A stretch of DNA of 38,680 bases, from the IMG/VR virus record IMGVR_UViG_3300033153_002940, positions 1-38,680 of that record. The stretch is one strand, 5' to 3'. Origin of the DNA: a virus. This document shows, piece after piece, positions 3,683 through 10,176 of the stretch. The notes beneath the pieces are model-generated. The model did no database searches. It was not told the origin of the DNA and worked only from the letters and a program-made list of their open reading frames with translations. Positions within the stretch are counted from its first letter, which is position 1, and each line of letters begins with the position of its first letter. Made by a program: the position numbers and the translations under genes.

Positions 3683-3946
3683 ATGGAAAAGAAAATATGC
3701 AGATATTGTAATGGAAAGAAACGCCTAGAGAAGCATCATATATTCCCCAAGTGCCACTTTGGAGCTAGGGGAAATAATAGCACTATCTGGGTTTGTCGTT
3801 CCTGCCACATTGACCTAGAACACTTCATAATGAAACACGAGGGTGTTATCCACTTCTTTCATCACGATGAGAGGAGGAGGAGAACCAGAATGTTTTATCT
3901 TTGGTGTGTTCTAAAGTTTGGGAGAGAGAAAGATGAAGGTGGCTGA
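3683..3946 (+). CDS. HNH endonuclease-like protein
   Basis: 87 aa from ATG 3683 (a longer frame upstream would overlap the phosphoesterase by over 100 bp). CRYC (Cys6, Cys9) and CRSCH (Cys38, Cys41, His42) form the zinc knuckles, and KHHI (His18, His19) is the first catalytic block of the HNH beta-beta-alpha fold. The C-terminus is basic (ERRRRTRM). It could be a homing-type nuclease or a packaging accessory nuclease; it is far from the terminase. It overlaps the next gene by 14 bp. Confidence 0.8.
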   Translation: MEKKICRYCNGKKRLEKHHIFPKCHFGARGNNSTIWVCRSCHIDLEHFIMKHEGVIHFFHHDERRRRTRMFYLWCVLKFGREKDEGG

Positions 3947-4118
3947 TAAAATAAAACTCATAAAGAAGCTAATACCAAAGCTCCATTATACACAACAATC
4001 TGAAGTTTATGCTCTATGGAGAGATACAGAGGCTCATAATGAGAATTTAGAACTCGTTATTAATCGCTGTAACTCTTTTATAAGGCACAATATTCGGGTG
4101 TTGAAAGACAAGAGGTAG
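3933..4118 (+). CDS. Small hypothetical helical protein
   Basis: 61 aa from ATG 3933, chosen over the TTG at 3918. A GGGAGAGAG stretch lies just upstream and may serve as ribosome-binding site. The product has a basic N-terminal helix (KIKLIKKLIPKL) and a second basic helix at the C-terminus. It may bind nucleic acid, but no family is recognised. It is last in its operon, and its stop codon is inside the terminator stem. Confidence 0.5.
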   Translation: MKVADKIKLIKKLIPKLHYTQQSEVYALWRDTEAHNENLELVINRCNSFIRHNIRVLKDKR

Positions 4119-4141
4119 GCTAACAACCTATCTCTTTTTTT
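4111..4141 (+). terminator. Strong rho-independent terminator
   Basis: AGAGGTAGG (4111-4119) pairs with CCTATCTCT (4127-4135): a 9-bp stem with one G-U pair and a 7-nt loop, followed by a T-run to 4141. It overlaps the stop codon (TAG, 4116-4118) of the upstream gene and separates that operon from the replication region. Confidence 0.85.
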
Positions 4142-4199
4142 ATATCAAAAACAACTCCCTTTTCAGAGAGCTGTCCATAATTAAATGTGTTTGAAATTC

Positions 4200-4330
4200 A
4201 AATTTAGAGCTTGTAACCGCAAGCTGTCACGGAGTGGATTAACCACTACTATTATTATTATACACTCTAAACACGTTATTAACAACTTATTAACACTTTG
4301 TGTGTTTACATATAATATATAGGGTATATA
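4200..4330. other. Candidate replication origin
   Basis: This is within the 4142-4452 gene-free stretch, just before the initiator-like gene. It holds a perfect hairpin AGCTTG/CAAGCT (4208-4225), a second hairpin AGTGG/CCACT (4233-4247), and an A/T-rich run. Two copies of TTATTAACA (4276-4284, 4287-4295) follow, 11 bp apart, one mismatch from the DnaA-box consensus TTATNCACA. A perfect 7-bp inverted repeat, TAAACAC (4268-4274)/GTGTTTA (4302-4308), flanks the boxes. Box pairs in helical phase beside A/T-rich DNA and an initiator gene are typical of origins. Function is inferred. Confidence 0.45.
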
Positions 4331-4332
4331 AT
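4305..4332 (+). promoter_or_regulatory. Promoter of leader RNA/replication gene
   Basis: TTTACA (4305-4310), a 16-bp spacer, and TATAAT (4327-4332). The downstream sequence TATAATAATAACA (4327-4339) is shared exactly with 6563, 23143 and 33454. The start of transcription would be near 4339. Confidence 0.6.
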
Positions 4333-4338
4333 AATAAC

Positions 4339-4425
4339 AGATTATAAAGACTTCAAGTTGTGTGAAAGAGGCTCTAATAGGGAAGTTTGGTTACACAACA
4401 CCAAACTCTCCTGTTAGGGCTTTTT
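4339..4425 (+). ncRNA. Leader RNA/attenuator ending in a long terminator hairpin
   Basis: Between a good promoter (-10 at 4327) and the replication gene lies a long hairpin: 4370-4382 pairs with 4409-4421 (13 bp with G-U pairs), an A-C mismatch, then AGTTTGGT/ACCAAACT (4384-4391/4400-4407) with loop TACACAAC, followed by TTTTT (4421-4425). The loop bases ACACAAC (4393-4399) are perfectly complementary to GTTGTGT (4357-4363) upstream, so a pseudoknot or competing antiterminator pairing is possible. It could be an ~87-nt small RNA, or an attenuator controlling the initiator gene at 4453. No coding frame explains this conservation of pairing. Confidence 0.55.
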
Positions 4426-4452
4426 AACTTGTTATTAGATAATAAAGAAAAT

Positions 4453-4920
4453 ATGTCAAAACAGAGATACATAAATACAAAAATATGGGAAGATGCTTGG
4501 TTTTCAAATCTAGACCAAATTGAACAATTAGTGTTTATTTACTTTCTTACTAATCCAATGACTAATATTGTTGGGGCTTATGAGATAAGTAAAAAAACAA
4601 TAAGTGTATCAACAGGATTAGAAATGAGAACTCTTGATGAAATCTTAGGAAGATTTAAAAAAGATAAAAAAGTGTTTTATCTTGATGGTTGGATAGTTTT
4701 ACCAAATTTTATAAGACACCAAAATCATAAATCCCCTAAAATACAACGTGGAATAGAGATAGAATTAGAATCTATGCCTGATAATGTTAAGGTATTGATA
4801 CCCTATACATATGGTATAGATACCATATCGCATTCTAATACTAATACTAATACTAATATCCTATTTATAAGAATTGGTTTAAAAATAAAACCCAACGAAA
4901 AGCCTGTAATGATTTATTAG
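4453..4920 (+). CDS. Phage replication initiator-like protein, N-terminal part (frame-interrupted)
   Basis: 155 aa from ATG 4453; an upstream TTG at 4387 lies inside the terminator hairpin and is rejected. The N-terminus (MSKQRYINTKIWEDAWFSNL), then LVFIYFLTNPMTNIVGAYEI and KVFYLDGWIVLPNFIRHQN, matches the winged-helix-like N-domain common to phage replication (O/DnaD-like) proteins. After a (Asn-Thr)n linker encoded by TAATAC repeats (about 4834-4858) the frame yields ILFIRIG and stops. The conserved C-domain continues in the -1 frame. A T TTA AAA slippery heptamer lies at 4878-4884 in frame. A -1 shift there would give a 219-aa protein ending at 5111. Confidence 0.75.
   Translation: MSKQRYINTKIWEDAWFSNLDQIEQLVFIYFLTNPMTNIVGAYEISKKTISVSTGLEMRTLDEILGRFKKDKKVFYLDGWIVLPNFIRHQNHKSPKIQRGIEIELESMPDNVKVLIPYTYGIDTISHSNTNTNTNILFIRIGLKIKPNEKPVMIY
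4878..4884 (+). other. Candidate -1 ribosomal frameshift heptamer
   Basis: T TTA AAA in the zero frame of the replication gene (GGT TTA AAA) fits the X XXY YYZ rule. Slipping back one base gives TTT AAA AAT, entering the frame that encodes NKTQRKACNDLL and ends at 5111. No strong stimulatory hairpin lies 5-9 nt downstream; a small hairpin AAGTTG/CAACTT is about 50 nt further on. Confidence 0.4.
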
Positions 4921-4925
4921 ATTTA

Positions 4926-5111
4926 ATGGAGTTTGAGAAGTTGGAGCAACTTATCAAGAGGGTTTTGCCAGTAACGAATAAAAGACAGTATGCCCCCAGT
5001 ATAACAACCCCCCACCAGCTTCTACAAAAATTTGCTCAATTAGAGAGTTATTTATCAAAAGAAAAAACTTCTGCTGATGAAAAAAAGAAGTCTAACCTAG
5101 CTTTCGGATAA
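4926..5111 (+). CDS. Replication protein, C-terminal part in the -1 frame
   Basis: From its own ATG 61 aa, but the frame is open back to about 4857 and encodes YPIYKNWFKNKTQRKACNDL before it. The segment with LEQLIKRVLPVTN, YAPSITTPHQLLQKFAQLE is the conserved C-terminal helical domain that follows the linker in this type of phage replication protein. It therefore belongs to the gene at 4453 and is reached either by programmed -1 frameshifting or through an indel. A separately translated short form from ATG 4926 is possible. The stop is followed after one base by the next start (TAATATG). Confidence 0.6.
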   Translation: MEFEKLEQLIKRVLPVTNKRQYAPSITTPHQLLQKFAQLESYLSKEKTSADEKKKSNLAFG

Positions 5112-5112
5112 T

Positions 5113-5469
5113 ATGAAAAAACTAAAAATAAAAATAATAATGGGATTTAGAAAGGACCAAGAACATACCATTGAAGCCGAAGAGGCTCACAAAGCATATT
5201 TTCTATTTCAGAACCCAGAAGAAAGAGGGGTGTTTAACAATGGTTTAGCTGTTGTTGGTAGGGACATCAGGGGAATAGAACCTGATTACCACACAACAAT
5301 GGGGTGGAATAAAACACATAATTTGGATTCAAATGATTGGAATGAAATGAGAAAATTAAATATAGATACAAAAATGAGAGAACTAATGGTGGAGGCTAAA
5401 CAACTATCTTTAAACCCAGATTTAATACAATTACCAATGTCAGAGGCTAATAATAAGTTATTAAATTAA
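5113..5469 (+). CDS. Hypothetical phage protein
   Basis: 118 aa. A short basic beta-strand-like N-terminus (MKKLKIKIIMGF) is followed by an acidic helix and the block DYHTTMGWNKTHNLDSNDW, then a helical C-terminus. I recognise it only as the kind of short protein found after phage replication genes; no function can be assigned. It starts one base after the preceding stop (TAATATG), so translation is probably coupled to the replication protein. A non-coding 126-bp gap with a promoter follows. Confidence 0.6.
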   Translation: MKKLKIKIIMGFRKDQEHTIEAEEAHKAYFLFQNPEERGVFNNGLAVVGRDIRGIEPDYHTTMGWNKTHNLDSNDWNEMRKLNIDTKMRELMVEAKQLSLNPDLIQLPMSEANNKLLN

Positions 5470-5532
5470 AGAAAAGGGGTAGTTAAGCAATAAGATAAAG
5501 GGTATTTTAGGGGTTTACAGCCACTACCTATT

Positions 5533-5541
5533 TGTTATAAT
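5533..5541 (+). promoter_or_regulatory. Extended -10 promoter of the early small-gene operon
   Basis: TG, T, TATAAT (5536-5541), followed by AATAAGG. The leader to ATG 5596 would be about 48 nt, the longest for this promoter type here. It holds a 6-bp hairpin GTAATC/GATTAC (5548-5553/5559-5564). Confidence 0.6.
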
Positions 5542-5595
5542 AATAAGGTAATCAAAGGGATTACATTATAAGCAATAAACAATTAAAGAAAAATA

Positions 5596-5856
5596 ATGAG
5601 AGTAGAAATAACAACATTTGATAAGGAAAGAAATAATATCATAACAAGAACATATGATTGGGATAATAATGGAGATGACCACAGCGAAGTGGTAAACGAA
5701 ATTATAGAGGACAGTCATTCTATTTTAGAAGATAGAGAAACAAGAAATGCAGAACTTAAAAAGGTTGATGAAGATGAAAAAGCAATAGACCAAGAGCTTG
5801 AAGAAATTGATGACAAAAATGAAAGAGCTTTTGATAATAACCAACAGGAGAAATAA
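5596..5856 (+). CDS. Acidic hypothetical protein
   Basis: 86 aa, strongly acidic (VDEDEKAIDQELEEIDD), with a beta-strand-like N-terminal 20 residues and a coiled-coil-like rest. The composition resembles small phage proteins that mimic DNA or modulate host enzymes, but nothing in the sequence proves that. It is the first gene after the promoter at 5536. AGGAG near its end may serve the next gene. Confidence 0.55.
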   Translation: MRVEITTFDKERNNIITRTYDWDNNGDDHSEVVNEIIEDSHSILEDRETRNAELKKVDEDEKAIDQELEEIDDKNERAFDNNQQEK

Positions 5857-5860
5857 TAAT

Positions 5861-6058
5861 ATGAAAATAACCAGACAACAAAGATTAGATTTGGTGGCTC
5901 TTCTAGACCATTCTAATGAAGATATGAGTTATTGGGAGGGGGGCACTTTCATAGACAGGGCTTCGAATATTTCAGAACCAGAGGCGGATAAGAAAGAAAT
6001 GAGGAGCGTAAGACGAGCACACAATTGGATTATTAATAATATTTTAACCAAGAAATAA
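5861..6058 (+). CDS. Small hypothetical protein
   Basis: 65 aa from ATG 5861; a start at 5798 would overlap the previous gene by about 60 bp and give an unrelated N-terminus. An AGGAG lies 12 nt before the ATG. The product begins with a basic helix (KITRQQRLDLVALLDH), then DMSYWEGGTF, and ends in a basic helix (RSVRRAHNWIINNIL). No family is recognised. Confidence 0.5.
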   Translation: MKITRQQRLDLVALLDHSNEDMSYWEGGTFIDRASNISEPEADKKEMRSVRRAHNWIINNILTKK

Positions 6059-6061
6059 ATT

Positions 6062-6253
6062 ATGAATAGACACGACATAACAACTCTTACATTAATATTG
6101 ATTATAGCTATATTGTTTTCAATAGGGCTATTCCATATTTCTATAACGAGAACAAAAGTGTTGAACGATTATGATACTTGTATAGCAGAACATAATGAGG
6201 GTAATTTACCAATTAAGGAGGCGTGGCAAGTTTACGCTGACGAATGTAAATAA
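6062..6253 (+). CDS. Small single-pass membrane protein
   Basis: 63 aa. A short N-terminus is followed by one clear membrane helix (about residues 8-28; TLTLILIIAILFSIGLF) and a hydrophilic tail with two cysteines (Cys40, Cys62) that could form a disulfide outside the membrane. It lies in the early operon, 3 bp after the previous stop. A role in superinfection exclusion or host membrane takeover is possible, but only by analogy with other early phage membrane proteins. Confidence 0.55.
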   Translation: MNRHDITTLTLILIIAILFSIGLFHISITRTKVLNDYDTCIAEHNEGNLPIKEAWQVYADECK

Positions 6254-6257
6254 TATT

Positions 6258-6539
6258 ATGCAAGGAAAAATCAGAATACCAACAGACCAATATGCTTTTA
6301 TAGAATTAGATGTGGATATGGCTCCGTCAGAAATAATAAAGGTTCATAATGACCTATTGGAAATGTATAAAGAATCAAAACAGGGTGGAATAGGAGATAC
6401 AGAACTTGTGAAAATCGCAGGTAAATATCTTTATGGTGGCAAATTATCATCAGATGATTACCTAGAGAAGATGTCCGAGAGGGAAAAATGGTTTATTGAT
6501 AGATTAAGAAGAATCAAAAGAAATAATGAAGAAGAATAG
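6258..6539 (+). CDS. Hypothetical phage protein of the replication region
   Basis: 93 aa from ATG 6258 (the longer frame from 6195 would overlap the membrane protein). The N-terminal block KIRIPTDQYAFIELDVD resembles short phage proteins with an Ile-Pro-Thr-x-x-Tyr-Ala-Phe-Ile-Glu opening that lie before SSB genes. The C-terminus is basic (RLRRIKRNN). Function is unknown. Its start is 4 bp after the previous stop, with an A/T-only spacer. Confidence 0.55.
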   Translation: MQGKIRIPTDQYAFIELDVDMAPSEIIKVHNDLLEMYKESKQGGIGDTELVKIAGKYLYGGKLSSDDYLEKMSEREKWFIDRLRRIKRNNEEE

Positions 6540-6559
6540 TGTATTAAAATAACAAAGTA

Positions 6560-6568
6560 TGATATAAT
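6560..6568 (+). promoter_or_regulatory. Extended -10 promoter, near-leaderless
   Basis: TG, A, TATAAT (6563-6568). Nine bases separate the box from the ATG at 6578, so the start of transcription falls within about 3 nt of the start codon. It shares TATAATAATAACA with 4327, 23143 and 33454. Confidence 0.65.
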
Positions 6569-6577
6569 AATAACAAT

Positions 6578-6907
6578 ATGAAAGGACGAATAACAAAAAT
6601 AGACCCATTAAAAGAAAGTCATAATAAAAATCAGGCATACCATAGAGTATATTTTCAGGTTCGTGAAGTTGATGAAGAAAAGAAACTGATAAATAAGTGG
6701 TATAAGACAGATTTGGTAACAAAGTTTAGAAATTATAAGAGGTGGTCGCCACACTTACAGATTGGTGCTGTCTTTTATGGACTTAAAAGAAAAGATGATA
6801 AAACAATAGATGCCGACTCTAAATTTACTTATGATGGTAATATAGAACTTAAAGATAAGGATAAGGAGGAGATGAGAGAACACGTGGAACAATTATCTTT
6901 ATTATAA
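6578..6907 (+). CDS. Hypothetical, possibly OB-fold-like protein
   Basis: 109 aa. Alternating beta-strand-like segments (MKGRITKIDPL, HRVYFQVREV, KWYKTDLV, IGAVFYGLK) with basic and aromatic residues suggest a small beta-barrel such as a nucleic-acid-binding OB fold. The acidic C-terminus (KDKDKEEMREHVEQLSLL) also fits that. It sits two genes before an SSB-like protein. No specific family is recognised. It is probably translated from a nearly leaderless message. Confidence 0.5.
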   Translation: MKGRITKIDPLKESHNKNQAYHRVYFQVREVDEEKKLINKWYKTDLVTKFRNYKRWSPHLQIGAVFYGLKRKDDKTIDADSKFTYDGNIELKDKDKEEMREHVEQLSLL

Positions 6908-6910
6908 AAA

Positions 6911-6949
6911 TTGACCGGAAATGTCTATAAACTATTATAAGCTTAATTA
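6911..6949 (+). promoter_or_regulatory. Duplicated upstream element, copy A (likely promoter)
   Basis: TTGACC (6911-6916), 16 bp, TATTAT (6933-6938), then CTTAATTA (6942-6949), 9 nt before the ATG at 6959. A related copy precedes the next gene. The 21 bases at 6929-6949 match 7146-7166 at 19 positions. This looks like a -35/-10 promoter class different from the extended -10 sites, possibly with an operator. Confidence 0.5.
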
Positions 6950-6958
6950 AAAAAAAAT

Positions 6959-7123
6959 ATGGAAGATTTAATGTATATGGTATTGGGGCTAGTAATGTTT
7001 TATTCGTGGATTCACGGAACAATTATTATTTCCCACAATATAAAAAAAATATCTAATTATAAAAAGACAGTCCTTGTCGTTGGATTAGTAGGTTTTGTTC
7101 TTTATGTAGTTGGAACGTTATAA
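6959..7123 (+). CDS. 54-aa protein with two membrane segments
   Basis: ATG 6959 to TAA 7121-7123. Two hydrophobic helices (about residues 5-25 and 37-53) flank a basic loop (HNIKKISNYKK). Topology is that of a small hairpin membrane protein. It has its own promoter-like element and is followed by a near copy of that element, so it looks like an independently controlled cassette inserted before the SSB gene. It could be an antiholin, an exclusion protein or a regulator; no family signature decides. Confidence 0.55.
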   Translation: MEDLMYMVLGLVMFYSWIHGTIIISHNIKKISNYKKTVLVVGLVGFVLYVVGTL

Positions 7124-7125
7124 AA

Positions 7126-7166
7126 TTGTGACCGAAATTGTCCCTAAACTATTATTAACTTAATTA
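7126..7166 (+). promoter_or_regulatory. Duplicated upstream element, copy B (likely promoter)
   Basis: TTGTGACC (7126-7133), TATTAT (7150-7155) and CTTAATTA (7159-7166), 8 nt before the ATG at 7175. It is a diverged copy of 6911-6949. The -35/-10 spacing differs slightly, but TATTAT-to-CTTAATTA spacing is identical. Confidence 0.5.
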
Positions 7167-7174
7167 TTAAAATT

Positions 7175-7846
7175 ATGATTAAAGCAAATAAACCAGAGAG
7201 CACATTTGAATATGAACTGTGTCCCGCTGGAACGCATTTAGCAAGAGTTTTTAAAATTGTTAATATAGGAACAATTAAGGAAAGCTGGGAGGGTCAAGAA
7301 AAGGATTCTCACAAGATTAGAGTTTACTGGGAACTTCCTAGTGAAAAAAAGACCTATGAAATTGAAAAAGATGGTAAAAAGGAGACTGTTAATTCAGTAT
7401 TTAGTATCTCACAGGAATATACCCTATCATTTGGGGATAGAGCAAAGCTCCGACCAATCGTGGTGGGTATTATGGGAGAGGACTTTAAAACAGACCAAGA
7501 CGCTTGGAATTTCAACATTGAAGATATACTCGGCAAGAGTTGTATTATAAATGTTACCCATAGAACTTCTAAAGATGGTCAAAGACAATATGCAATAGTT
7601 GTTAGTGCATCTGCTCTTATGAAAGGTCAAAAAGAAGAAGAACCAGTTAATGAGGCTAAAATAGTTGATGTTGAAACTATCACGGAAGAAGAACTGGATA
7701 AAGTATATGATACTCTGAGACAGAAAATTAAATCGTCTAAAGAATATCAAGCAAGAATGAATCCTACAGAAACCAAACCAGAAGATAAAGAAAGACCAGA
7801 TTACCCCGTTAGTGATGAAATAAATCCTGACGATATTCCTTTTTAG
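7175..7846 (+). CDS. Single-stranded-DNA-binding-like replication/recombination protein
   Basis: 223 aa. The N-terminal block (LCPAGTHLARVFKIVNIGT, then SHKIRVYWELP) is characteristic of a phage protein family usually placed with ssDNA binding and recombination. The core is beta-rich. The last residues, acidic then DDIPF, match the tail tip by which bacterial SSBs recruit partner proteins. It should coat single-stranded DNA during replication and recruit host enzymes. The acidic hinge (TEEELDKVYDTLRQK and after) is longer than usual. A structured non-coding segment follows immediately. Confidence 0.75.
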   Translation: MIKANKPESTFEYELCPAGTHLARVFKIVNIGTIKESWEGQEKDSHKIRVYWELPSEKKTYEIEKDGKKETVNSVFSISQEYTLSFGDRAKLRPIVVGIMGEDFKTDQDAWNFNIEDILGKSCIINVTHRTSKDGQRQYAIVVSASALMKGQKEEEPVNEAKIVDVETITEEELDKVYDTLRQKIKSSKEYQARMNPTETKPEDKERPDYPVSDEINPDDIPF

Positions 7847-7851
7847 AATAT

Positions 7852-7987
7852 AGGCTACCATTGAGGGTAGCTTCCCATATAGGACGAAGTTGAATAATAT
7901 GCTTATAATGTATTTTCCCCCTTATTGAACCTTCCAAATTTGCCCAACATTTTTGACCTCAATAAAAAACCTATTCCTATGTGGGAA
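7852..7987 (+). ncRNA. Candidate structured RNA with long-range stem and pseudoknot
   Basis: In the 163-bp gap after the SSB-like gene three helices can form together. (1) Hairpin AGGCTACC/GGTAGCTT (7852-7859/7866-7873), loop ATTGAG. (2) Long-range stem TTCCCATATAGGA/TCCTATGTGGGAA (7872-7884/7975-7987), 13 bp with one U-G pair. (3) An inner stem, 7886-7897 with 7922-7934, with one mismatch and one bulge. The loop ATTGAG (7860-7865) is also complementary to CTCAAT at 7958-7963, giving a pseudoknot. There is no T-run and no coding frame. It may be a cis-regulatory leader of the gene at 8010 or an independent RNA. A TATAAT at 7904-7909 lies in a loop. Confidence 0.5.
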
Positions 7988-8009
7988 ATTACCCTTAATT
8001 AAAATAACT

Positions 8010-8240
8010 ATGACAAATAAACAAGATAAAAGAATATATCAAGATATGATAGGGAAAATACTACACATTCAAAACATTCAGGACTTTAATGACATACTAG
8101 AACAAGCCCTTAAAGAACAAAGAGAGGAGATAATGGAGAAGATAAGGGTTGGAATATATATAAATGATGCAGAACTAGATAAATCAAGGTTTGATGAATA
8201 TGTAAAAGTTAAAGACATTATAAACCTAATAAAAGAGTAG
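8010..8240 (+). CDS. Hypothetical helical protein
   Basis: 76 aa from ATG 8010; the longer frame from 7953 would run into the structured RNA segment. The product is helical with mixed charge (ILEQALKEQREEIMEKIR) and no recognised domain. Its start is 22 nt after the long stem ends, so its translation may respond to that structure. It is followed 2 bp later by the GTG of the HNH gene. Confidence 0.5.
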   Translation: MTNKQDKRIYQDMIGKILHIQNIQDFNDILEQALKEQREEIMEKIRVGIYINDAELDKSRFDEYVKVKDIINLIKE

Positions 8241-8242
8241 TA

Positions 8243-8545
8243 GTGAGACTTAAAAACCCTTTTACAGAAGAAACCAGAAACCTATATCTATACCAATACT
8301 CCTGTCAATGCTGTGGTCGGTCAGATAGAGGGTTAGAACTGCATCATATTAAGGGTAGAAGCTCTAACTCTAAACTTAATGCAATAGTTCTCTGTCTAGA
8401 TTGTCATAAAATCATAGGACATACAGACGAGGAGGAGGGAAAATACTTACAAATTACAATAAGATTTCATTTACAAGAGAAAAACGAGCTTAATGAGGAC
8501 GATATTATGTTTTATGAAGACAATGTGTTATTATATCAACTATGA
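8243..8545 (+). CDS. HNH nuclease-like protein
   Basis: 100 aa, GTG start (8243). CQCC (Cys21, Cys24) and CLDCH (Cys51, Cys54, His55) are the zinc pairs, LHHI (His34, His35) is the HNH signature and Asn46 is in the expected middle position. The C-terminal half is helical and acidic. This family includes free-standing homing nucleases and phage packaging partners; it lies about 1.6 kb before the terminase genes, which fits a packaging helper better than the HNH gene at 3683 does. It overlaps the next gene by 4 bp (ATGA). Confidence 0.75.
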   Translation: MRLKNPFTEETRNLYLYQYSCQCCGRSDRGLELHHIKGRSSNSKLNAIVLCLDCHKIIGHTDEEEGKYLQITIRFHLQEKNELNEDDIMFYEDNVLLYQL

Positions 8546-8736: not shown

Positions 8737-9350
8737 AATTCAATCTACCGGAGATAATGTGGAGGTTATTATCAAAGGTTAAGCTAAATGACAGAAACCC
8801 CAGAAAGATTAACGACAATAAATTTGAAACTTTAAAGAAGAATATAGAGAAATTCCCCAAAATGATGGGAATTAGACCCGTTGTTATAGACCAAGATAGT
8901 GTGATTATGGGAGGAAATATGAGGTTTAGAGCTTGTTTGGATTTAGGTTGGAAAGAAATACCAGTCATTATGTTTGATGAAAGTTGGACTAAGGAGGAGA
9001 TGAAGATGTTTGTTGTGGTTGATAATCAGGGTTATGGTGTTTGGGATTATGAAATACTTGGTGCCGATTATGATATGGAAGAACTTGAGAACTATGGACT
9101 TGATTTAAATTATAATATTAATCCATCAGAGATAGATGTTGAGGCAGAATGGGAGGGTATGCCCGAAGTAAATGCCCAGAGGGTAGAGGGCGCAGTTCAA
9201 TCAATAGTAATTCACTTTGAAACCGCAGAAGATGTTATAAAATTCGCAGAGATAACCGAACTTAAATTAACAGACAAAACAAAATTTGCTTGGTTCCCTT
9301 TTAGAGAACAACAAAAAAATAAAGATTTTATAGTAGAAAATGAATCCTAA
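8727..9350 (+). CDS. ParB/Srx-like domain protein
   Basis: 207 aa. Residues about 20-85 carry the ParB-like signature: DRNPRKINDNKFETLKKNIE, PVVIDQDSVIMGGNMRFRAC, then WKEIPVIMFD. The GGNMRFRA block is the nucleotide-binding box of the fold. Phage ParB-like proteins next to terminases or DNA-modifying enzymes can be nucleases, CTPases or adaptors. There is no helix-turn-helix DNA-binding domain of chromosomal ParB; the C-terminal half is acidic and unassigned. It overlaps the HU-arm-like gene by 10 bp and the glycosyltransferase gene by 11 bp. A downstream ATG at 8757 is an alternative start. Confidence 0.8.
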   Translation: MQIKFNLPEIMWRLLSKVKLNDRNPRKINDNKFETLKKNIEKFPKMMGIRPVVIDQDSVIMGGNMRFRACLDLGWKEIPVIMFDESWTKEEMKMFVVVDNQGYGVWDYEILGADYDMEELENYGLDLNYNINPSEIDVEAEWEGMPEVNAQRVEGAVQSIVIHFETAEDVIKFAEITELKLTDKTKFAWFPFREQQKNKDFIVENES

Positions 9351-10176
9351 ATACCCAATATATATAATATCTAAAGGGAGATGGGAGAGTCGCCAGACCT
9401 CAAAAGCCTTGGAAAAGATGAATGTTCCTTATAGAATAGTTATTGAACCACAGGAATATGATGATTATGCCAAAGTAATAGATAAAGAAAAGATATTACA
9501 ACTTCCCTTTAGTAATTTAGGTAAGGGTAGTATCCCTGCTAGAAATTGGGTATGGGAACACTCAAGAACAGAGGGACATAAGAGACATTGGATAATGGAC
9601 GATAATATTCAATCCTTTTTGAGATTAATAGGTGGAAGAAGATATTATGTGGGAGATGGGACAATCCTAAAGGCCGCAGAAGATTTTACTGATAGATATG
9701 AAAACATAGCTATGGCGGGTCTTAACTATAAAATGTTTGTAGTTGATAAGAATAAAAAGGCATTCACCCCTAATACTAGAATATATAGTTGTATATTATT
9801 ACAGAATGATATGCCACATCGCTGGAGAGGTCGCTACAACGAAGATACTGACCTATCTATAAGGTTTTTAAAAGATGGATATTGCACAATACTATTTAAT
9901 GCTTTTATGTGTGATAAAACCGCAACAATGACTATGAAAGGAGGTAATACAGACCAACTATACAAACAAGACAGAAAGATGGACGGAAGACTAATGATGG
10001 CTAAATCTCTCCAACAACAACACCCTGATATAGTAGAGATAAAATGGAAGTGGGGAAGATGGCAACATTCAGTAGATTATAGACCCTTTAGAAAGAATAC
10101 TTTTATTAAAAGGAAAGACCTAAAAATTAAAGAGGGAATAGACAATTATGGTATGAAGATTAAGAAAGTAGTATAA
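9340..10176 (+). CDS. TET-associated-type glycosyltransferase (TAGT-like)
   Basis: 278 aa. GT-A fold features of the TAGT family are clear: opening YPIYIISKGRWESRQT, the DDN metal motif (IMDDNI, 87-89), NTRIYSCILLQND, and RGRYNEDTDLSIR (NEDTD 167-171) followed by KGGNTDQLY. In phages this family is proposed to glycosylate modified DNA bases. No TET/JBP oxygenase, thymidylate or dCMP hydroxymethylase is found in this genome, so the acceptor is unknown; it may act on a host-made base, on protein, or have drifted in role. It lies between ParB-like and terminase genes. Confidence 0.75.
   Translation: MNPKYPIYIISKGRWESRQTSKALEKMNVPYRIVIEPQEYDDYAKVIDKEKILQLPFSNLGKGSIPARNWVWEHSRTEGHKRHWIMDDNIQSFLRLIGGRRYYVGDGTILKAAEDFTDRYENIAMAGLNYKMFVVDKNKKAFTPNTRIYSCILLQNDMPHRWRGRYNEDTDLSIRFLKDGYCTILFNAFMCDKTATMTMKGGNTDQLYKQDRKMDGRLMMAKSLQQQHPDIVEIKWKWGRWQHSVDYRPFRKNTFIKRKDLKIKEGIDNYGMKIKKVV

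Follow-up and report, generated by a model that had tools for sequence, protein, structure and literature searches.

A long non-random hairpin between an SSB-like gene and a small downstream gene of an uncultured phage, possibly an RNase III-type processing site

The intercistronic gap at 7847-8009 of the phage window (the whole stretch of 38,680 nt analysed here) contains a real, strongly non-random hairpin, in which a 25-position inverted repeat closes a loop of 90 nt. Its most likely identity is a phage mRNA element of an ordinary type, probably serving the next gene in processing or as a leader. The role favoured by our analysis, to which we give a probability of about 0.4, would be that of an intercistronic + strand processing site for a double-strand RNase (RNase III-type), splitting the SSB message from that of the gene at 8010. 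What was observed and forms the basis of this reading is the repeat, its rarity relative to shuffled sequences, where it lies, its bias to the + strand and the missing U-tract. The features of the gap and its neighbours, all on the + strand, are as follows.

7175..7846, + strand: upstream SSB-like gene, 223 aa, C-terminus DDIPF (PHROG 862, E 3e-16)
7852..7873, + strand: 5' hairpin, AGGCTACC-ATTGAG-GGTAGCTT; competes with the outer half of the long stem and, by itself, is close to chance
7860..7884, + strand: left arm of the long stem (ATTGAGGGTAGCTTCCCATATAGGA), part of the inverted repeat that scores best in the window; predicted pairing probability 0.8-1.0
7885..7974, + strand: loop of the long hairpin, 90 nt; its fold is not significant (z -1.08, 81 of 500 shuffles as stable)
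7886..7934, + strand: inner stem of the preliminary description (7886-7897 with 7922-7934); z -0.86, 100 of 500 shuffles as stable, predicted pairing probability about 0.2-0.4
7904..7909, + strand: TATAAT in the loop, an exact match to a -10-like hexamer; no fitting -35 hexamer was found
7958..7963, + strand: CTCAAT, complement of the loop ATTGAG and proposed pseudoknot arm; present exactly in 1.9% of shuffled loops
7975..7999, + strand: right arm of the long stem (TCCTATGTGGGAAATTACCCTTAAT), 10 nt between its end and the ATG at 8010
8010..8240, + strand: downstream gene, 76 aa, no known family
8243..8545, + strand: HNH endonuclease gene (Pfam PF01844, above cut-off), the next after the 8010 gene

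The SSB-like protein had a tblastn match to a protein of Pseudoalteromonas phage RIO-1 annotated as putative ssDNA-binding, and its DDIPF end resembles the tips of bacterial SSBs. Pfam and PHROG searches with the 8010 protein gave no match, and the terminase large subunit gene is located 2.5 kb downstream. Only 5 of 56 gene starts in the window carried a Shine-Dalgarno-like motif; instead, A was found at -3 in 79% and T at -1 in 70% of the starts, a context that the 8010 start shares (A at -3, T at -1). In addition, an extended -10 motif, TGGTATAAT, has five + strand copies (window 5, 1839, 11856, 26269 and 38571), and at 5, 11856 and 26269 only 6-15 nt separate the end of the motif from an ATG, a placement that suggests leaderless or very short-leader transcripts. 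All occurrences of TGNTATAAT in the window numbered 12, compared with 4.7 expected. At 9340-10176, a gene for a TET-associated glycosyltransferase (TAGT, PF20691) adjoins a ParB-like gene, and this neighbourhood suggests that the phage DNA is hypermodified.

The repeat pairs 24 of its 25 positions (21 Watson-Crick and 3 G-U pairs, one mismatch). A 13-bp stem with one U-G pair (7872-7884 with 7975-7987) had been reported in the preliminary description and is indeed present; the outer extension (7860-7870 with 7989-7999), which joins it across a single C-A mismatch, had been missed. When ungapped complementary segments were scored across the window, with 40 dinucleotide-shuffled windows as controls, the long stem obtained 47.5, the highest score in the 38.7 kb, whereas the shuffled maxima averaged 32.3 and reached 38.0 at the top. 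The segment 7860-7999 folded with a z of -6.5, and none of 500 shuffles was equally stable. Both the score beyond all 40 shuffled maxima and this z value favour the processing reading. The outer stem had predicted pairing probabilities of 0.8-1.0 in the ensemble, the fold was kept in a 300-nt context, and no second copy of the arms could be found in the window. The predicted duplex would measure about two helical turns, as for an RNase III-type stem. It should be noted that the closeness of such stems to an ATG is partly expected, since non-coding gaps are short.

The gap as a whole also folded better than shuffled controls. RNAfold gave a minimum free energy of -40.4 kcal/mol for 7840-8010 (z -4.81), which none of 200 shuffles equalled, and a z of -4.96 for 7847-8009, which none of 500 equalled. 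The 160-nt window starting at 7841 ranked second across the whole record, both strands included, and the z of 7847-7952 alone was -0.3. The minimum-energy fold contains the extended stem in place of the structure first described. The whole gap exceeds chance (z about -5), but the earlier claim that three helices and a loop pairing do so broke down when the inner stem, the loop, CTCAAT and the 5' hairpin were each taken singly. Each of these pairings does exist in the sequence: the inner stem is interrupted by one G-G mismatch and by a bulge of one base, the 5' hairpin has eight pairs including one G-U, and the complementarity between ATTGAG and CTCAAT is perfect. With G-U pairs allowed, however, 55% of shuffled loops offered such a complement, and CTCAAT also competes for pairing with about 7922-7927 in the centroid fold. 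The 5' hairpin was equalled by 54 of 1000 shuffled flanks and 49 of 1045 window flanks (∼5%), and its predicted pairing probability in the ensemble was 0.0.

All three non-Watson-Crick pairs of the stem are G-U on the + strand, beside the one C-A mismatch, and on the - strand they therefore turn into A-C mismatches. The repeat scored 40.0 on the - strand versus 47.5 on the + strand, and the z of the gap fold was -1.9 versus about -5. These values favour the processing reading and indicate + strand RNA as the pairing strand, which is suggestive only, the differences to judge by being few. Neither an intrinsic terminator nor a matched -35/-10 promoter pair could be found on the + strand of the gap, in which the -10-like TATAAT at 7904 is present, and both flanking genes lie on the + strand; this arrangement favours the processing reading as well. 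Like an intrinsic terminator, the element is a strong hairpin after a gene; unlike one, it has a far too large loop, and the + strand stem is followed by UAAAAUAAC and not by a U-tract, for which reason this identity was rejected. Lacking both a matched promoter and a U-tract terminator on this strand, the gap does not support the suggestion of a free RNA. Rfam 15 gave no match at the gathering cut-off in the whole window, and a relaxed search of 3900-8100 returned sub-threshold matches only, none of them inside the gap. A known Rfam family was rejected on these results, and a tRNA or tmRNA identity was also rejected after a search.

Under the processing reading, a polycistronic transcript would run from the SSB gene through the 8010 gene to the HNH gene. 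The 25-position stem, closing a largely unstructured loop of 90 nt, would be a candidate RNase III-type target, and a cut there would part the SSB message from the 8010-HNH message, which would then begin with a leader of only some 15-25 nt. Until it is cut, the stem may protect or expose message ends. The anatomy of the T7 RNase III sites is the basis for the likeness to the gap hairpin. Such sites are established in the phages lambda, T7 and T3, which favours the processing reading, and cleavage can make a hidden ribosome site accessible, as in lambda cIII (PMC5371410). Like the hairpins of these phages, the gap has a long stem, here a predicted duplex, between cistrons of a putative same-strand operon, near the next gene and with no U-tract. 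Unlike them, it has an unusually large loop and no known shared sequence, and its cleavage is a prediction. RNase III cleavage also accompanies the UTR pairing of the icaR mRNA. In this mRNA of Staphylococcus aureus, base pairing between the 5' and 3' UTRs is reported to affect translation (PMC3868564). Distant regions of one transcript pair there and, by prediction, here, whereas icaR pairs the UTRs of one gene and both arms of our stem lie in one intercistronic gap.

Stems of this type were also present in related phages, where L105 796-869, L103 971-1044 and L110 4011-4059 end 21, 11 and 16 nt, respectively, before an ATG, contain G-U pairs and lack a U-tract. These comparable stems favour the processing reading; it weighs against it that they share no detectable sequence with the gap stem, so that the likeness is one of predicted anatomy only. 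Two further observations weigh against the processing reading. First, most SSB-family relatives (identity up to 43%) have no such gap, the distance at that place being mostly about -20 to 40 nt, and they were left aside as a basis for covariation. Second, no homologous gap, and hence no covariation, could be found in the databases searched. None came from blastn against phages, with either the SSB-to-HNH region or just the gap as query, from an exact 18-mer search of viral_contigs, from searches of viral_contigs and genome_contigs with proteins of the window and their alignments (SSB, portal, capsid, terminase and the 8010 protein) or from local blastn against all fetched loci. A contig of the same phage (L002, beginning at about window 8857) and a 70% relative that is too short (L003) both stop short of the gap. 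In the terminase relatives (∼55% identity), the SSB gene was absent from the fetched loci and from eight of their records searched. Sampling of the group to which this phage belongs is poor. An SSB-family phage has a comparable spaced repeat (L046 7251-7358), which was not taken to be homologous, since a different gene comes after it and no sequence match was found; it is flanked by GTTAAAT and TTGTTATG and vaguely resembles an integron attC site.

Several other structured sites were observed. A second, stronger structured gap (window 4119-4452) directly precedes a gene at 4453 resembling DnaA/DnaD-like replisome organisers; 4000-4460 has a z of -6.94, and the repeat 4366-4391/4400-4425 scores 46.5. 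The loop of the 4366-4425 hairpin, ACACAAC, is complementary to GTTGTGTG immediately 5' of the stem, and this gap may be an origin or a leader RNA. The layout of window 4360-4431 is matched in a terminase relative (L098 3671-3962), in which a DnaA-box-like TTATCCACA and TATAAT lie ahead of a long hairpin; the loop of this hairpin, CGCAAGG, has its complement, CCTTGCG, on the 5' side of the stem. In L105, 1-529 and 735-892 each contain TTATCCACAGGTA followed by a -10-like hexamer, a long hairpin and a small gene, a duplication that is possibly a repeated early promoter-leader unit.

A structured, probably + strand cis-acting element before the 8010 gene, as had been proposed, is still the best reading, without the pseudoknot form. 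The foremost alternative to processing, although an unlikely one, is a two-state leader for this gene, in which the 5' hairpin would form first and give way to the full stem after transcription of 7989-7999, the balance (set perhaps by a protein or the loop pairing) determining access to the start. GGGTAGC (7865-7871) does have two possible partners. Across 7860-7871 the 5' hairpin and the outer stem cannot form together, the overlap with the extended stem being 7860-7870 and not only the two bases 7872-7873 named earlier. We compared the states by forced nested folds, adding the energy of the duplex between the loop and its complement: forcing the hairpin cost 5.1 kcal/mol (-35.3 versus -40.4), a difference that the kissing helix ATTGAG/CTCAAT, worth -4.0 at most before any pseudoknot penalty, would shrink. 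The stem also ends 10 nt from the AUG in a phage with so few Shine-Dalgarno motifs. On the other hand, the hairpin and the loop complement are each near chance, and the AUG is unpaired in both states.

That the repeat is a functionless by-product of evolution, for instance an inverted duplication by template switching or a transposon remnant, also appears improbable. Events of these kinds produce spaced inverted repeats, and the missing homologue would fit them; however, of the four positions that break the symmetry, three form G-U pairs on the sense strand, which, although a small sample, suggests maintained RNA pairing, and no flanking target duplication was seen when looked for. A comparably low probability goes to a DNA-level element before the HNH and terminase genes, namely a protein-binding inverted repeat or a packaging or replication site. 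The HNH gene that follows, the terminase gene downstream and the folding of the gap as single-stranded DNA (z -2.5) speak for it; the 90 bp between the arms are wide for a protein site, the arms have no second copy in the window, and the asymmetries of the repeat favour pairing of RNA from one strand.

Autoregulation by SSB, also proposed earlier, is unlikely. The autogenous operator of gene 32 (Ssb) in T4 and RB69 is placed upstream of ssb, on its 5' side (PMC535899), whereas the gap element comes after the stop of the SSB-like gene at 7846, on its 3' side, and the homologous SSB genes examined mostly have the short or overlapping distances given above. The gap resembles that operator in a proposed pseudoknot near an SSB gene and a UUAAA/UAAA-like sequence near a start codon, but its pseudoknot is unsupported, the loop complement being present, near chance level and energetically disfavoured. 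A bistable leader, in which GGGTAGC would toggle between the 5' hairpin (its loop kissing CTCAAT) and the zipped 25-position stem while SSB or another ligand picks the state and times 8010-HNH-terminase expression, is highly improbable, and nothing observed demands one. Least probable of all is the compact pseudoknotted RNA of the preliminary description (hairpin, 13-bp stem, inner stem and kissing loop) as a novel riboregulator: although every named pairing is present and a kissing loop with all 6 nt paired is conceivable on steric grounds, the fold, with the kissing helix not yet counted, is less stable than the extended stem by 5 kcal/mol, its single parts are at or near chance and no Rfam family matches.

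The gap calls for caution in that short adjacent complementarities can mimic a pseudoknot where a longer competing stem exists. If the hairpin is processed as proposed, it would be a further case of phage operons splitting their messages with long hairpins, here in an uncultured phage group almost without Shine-Dalgarno motifs, in which a short leader could matter for translation.
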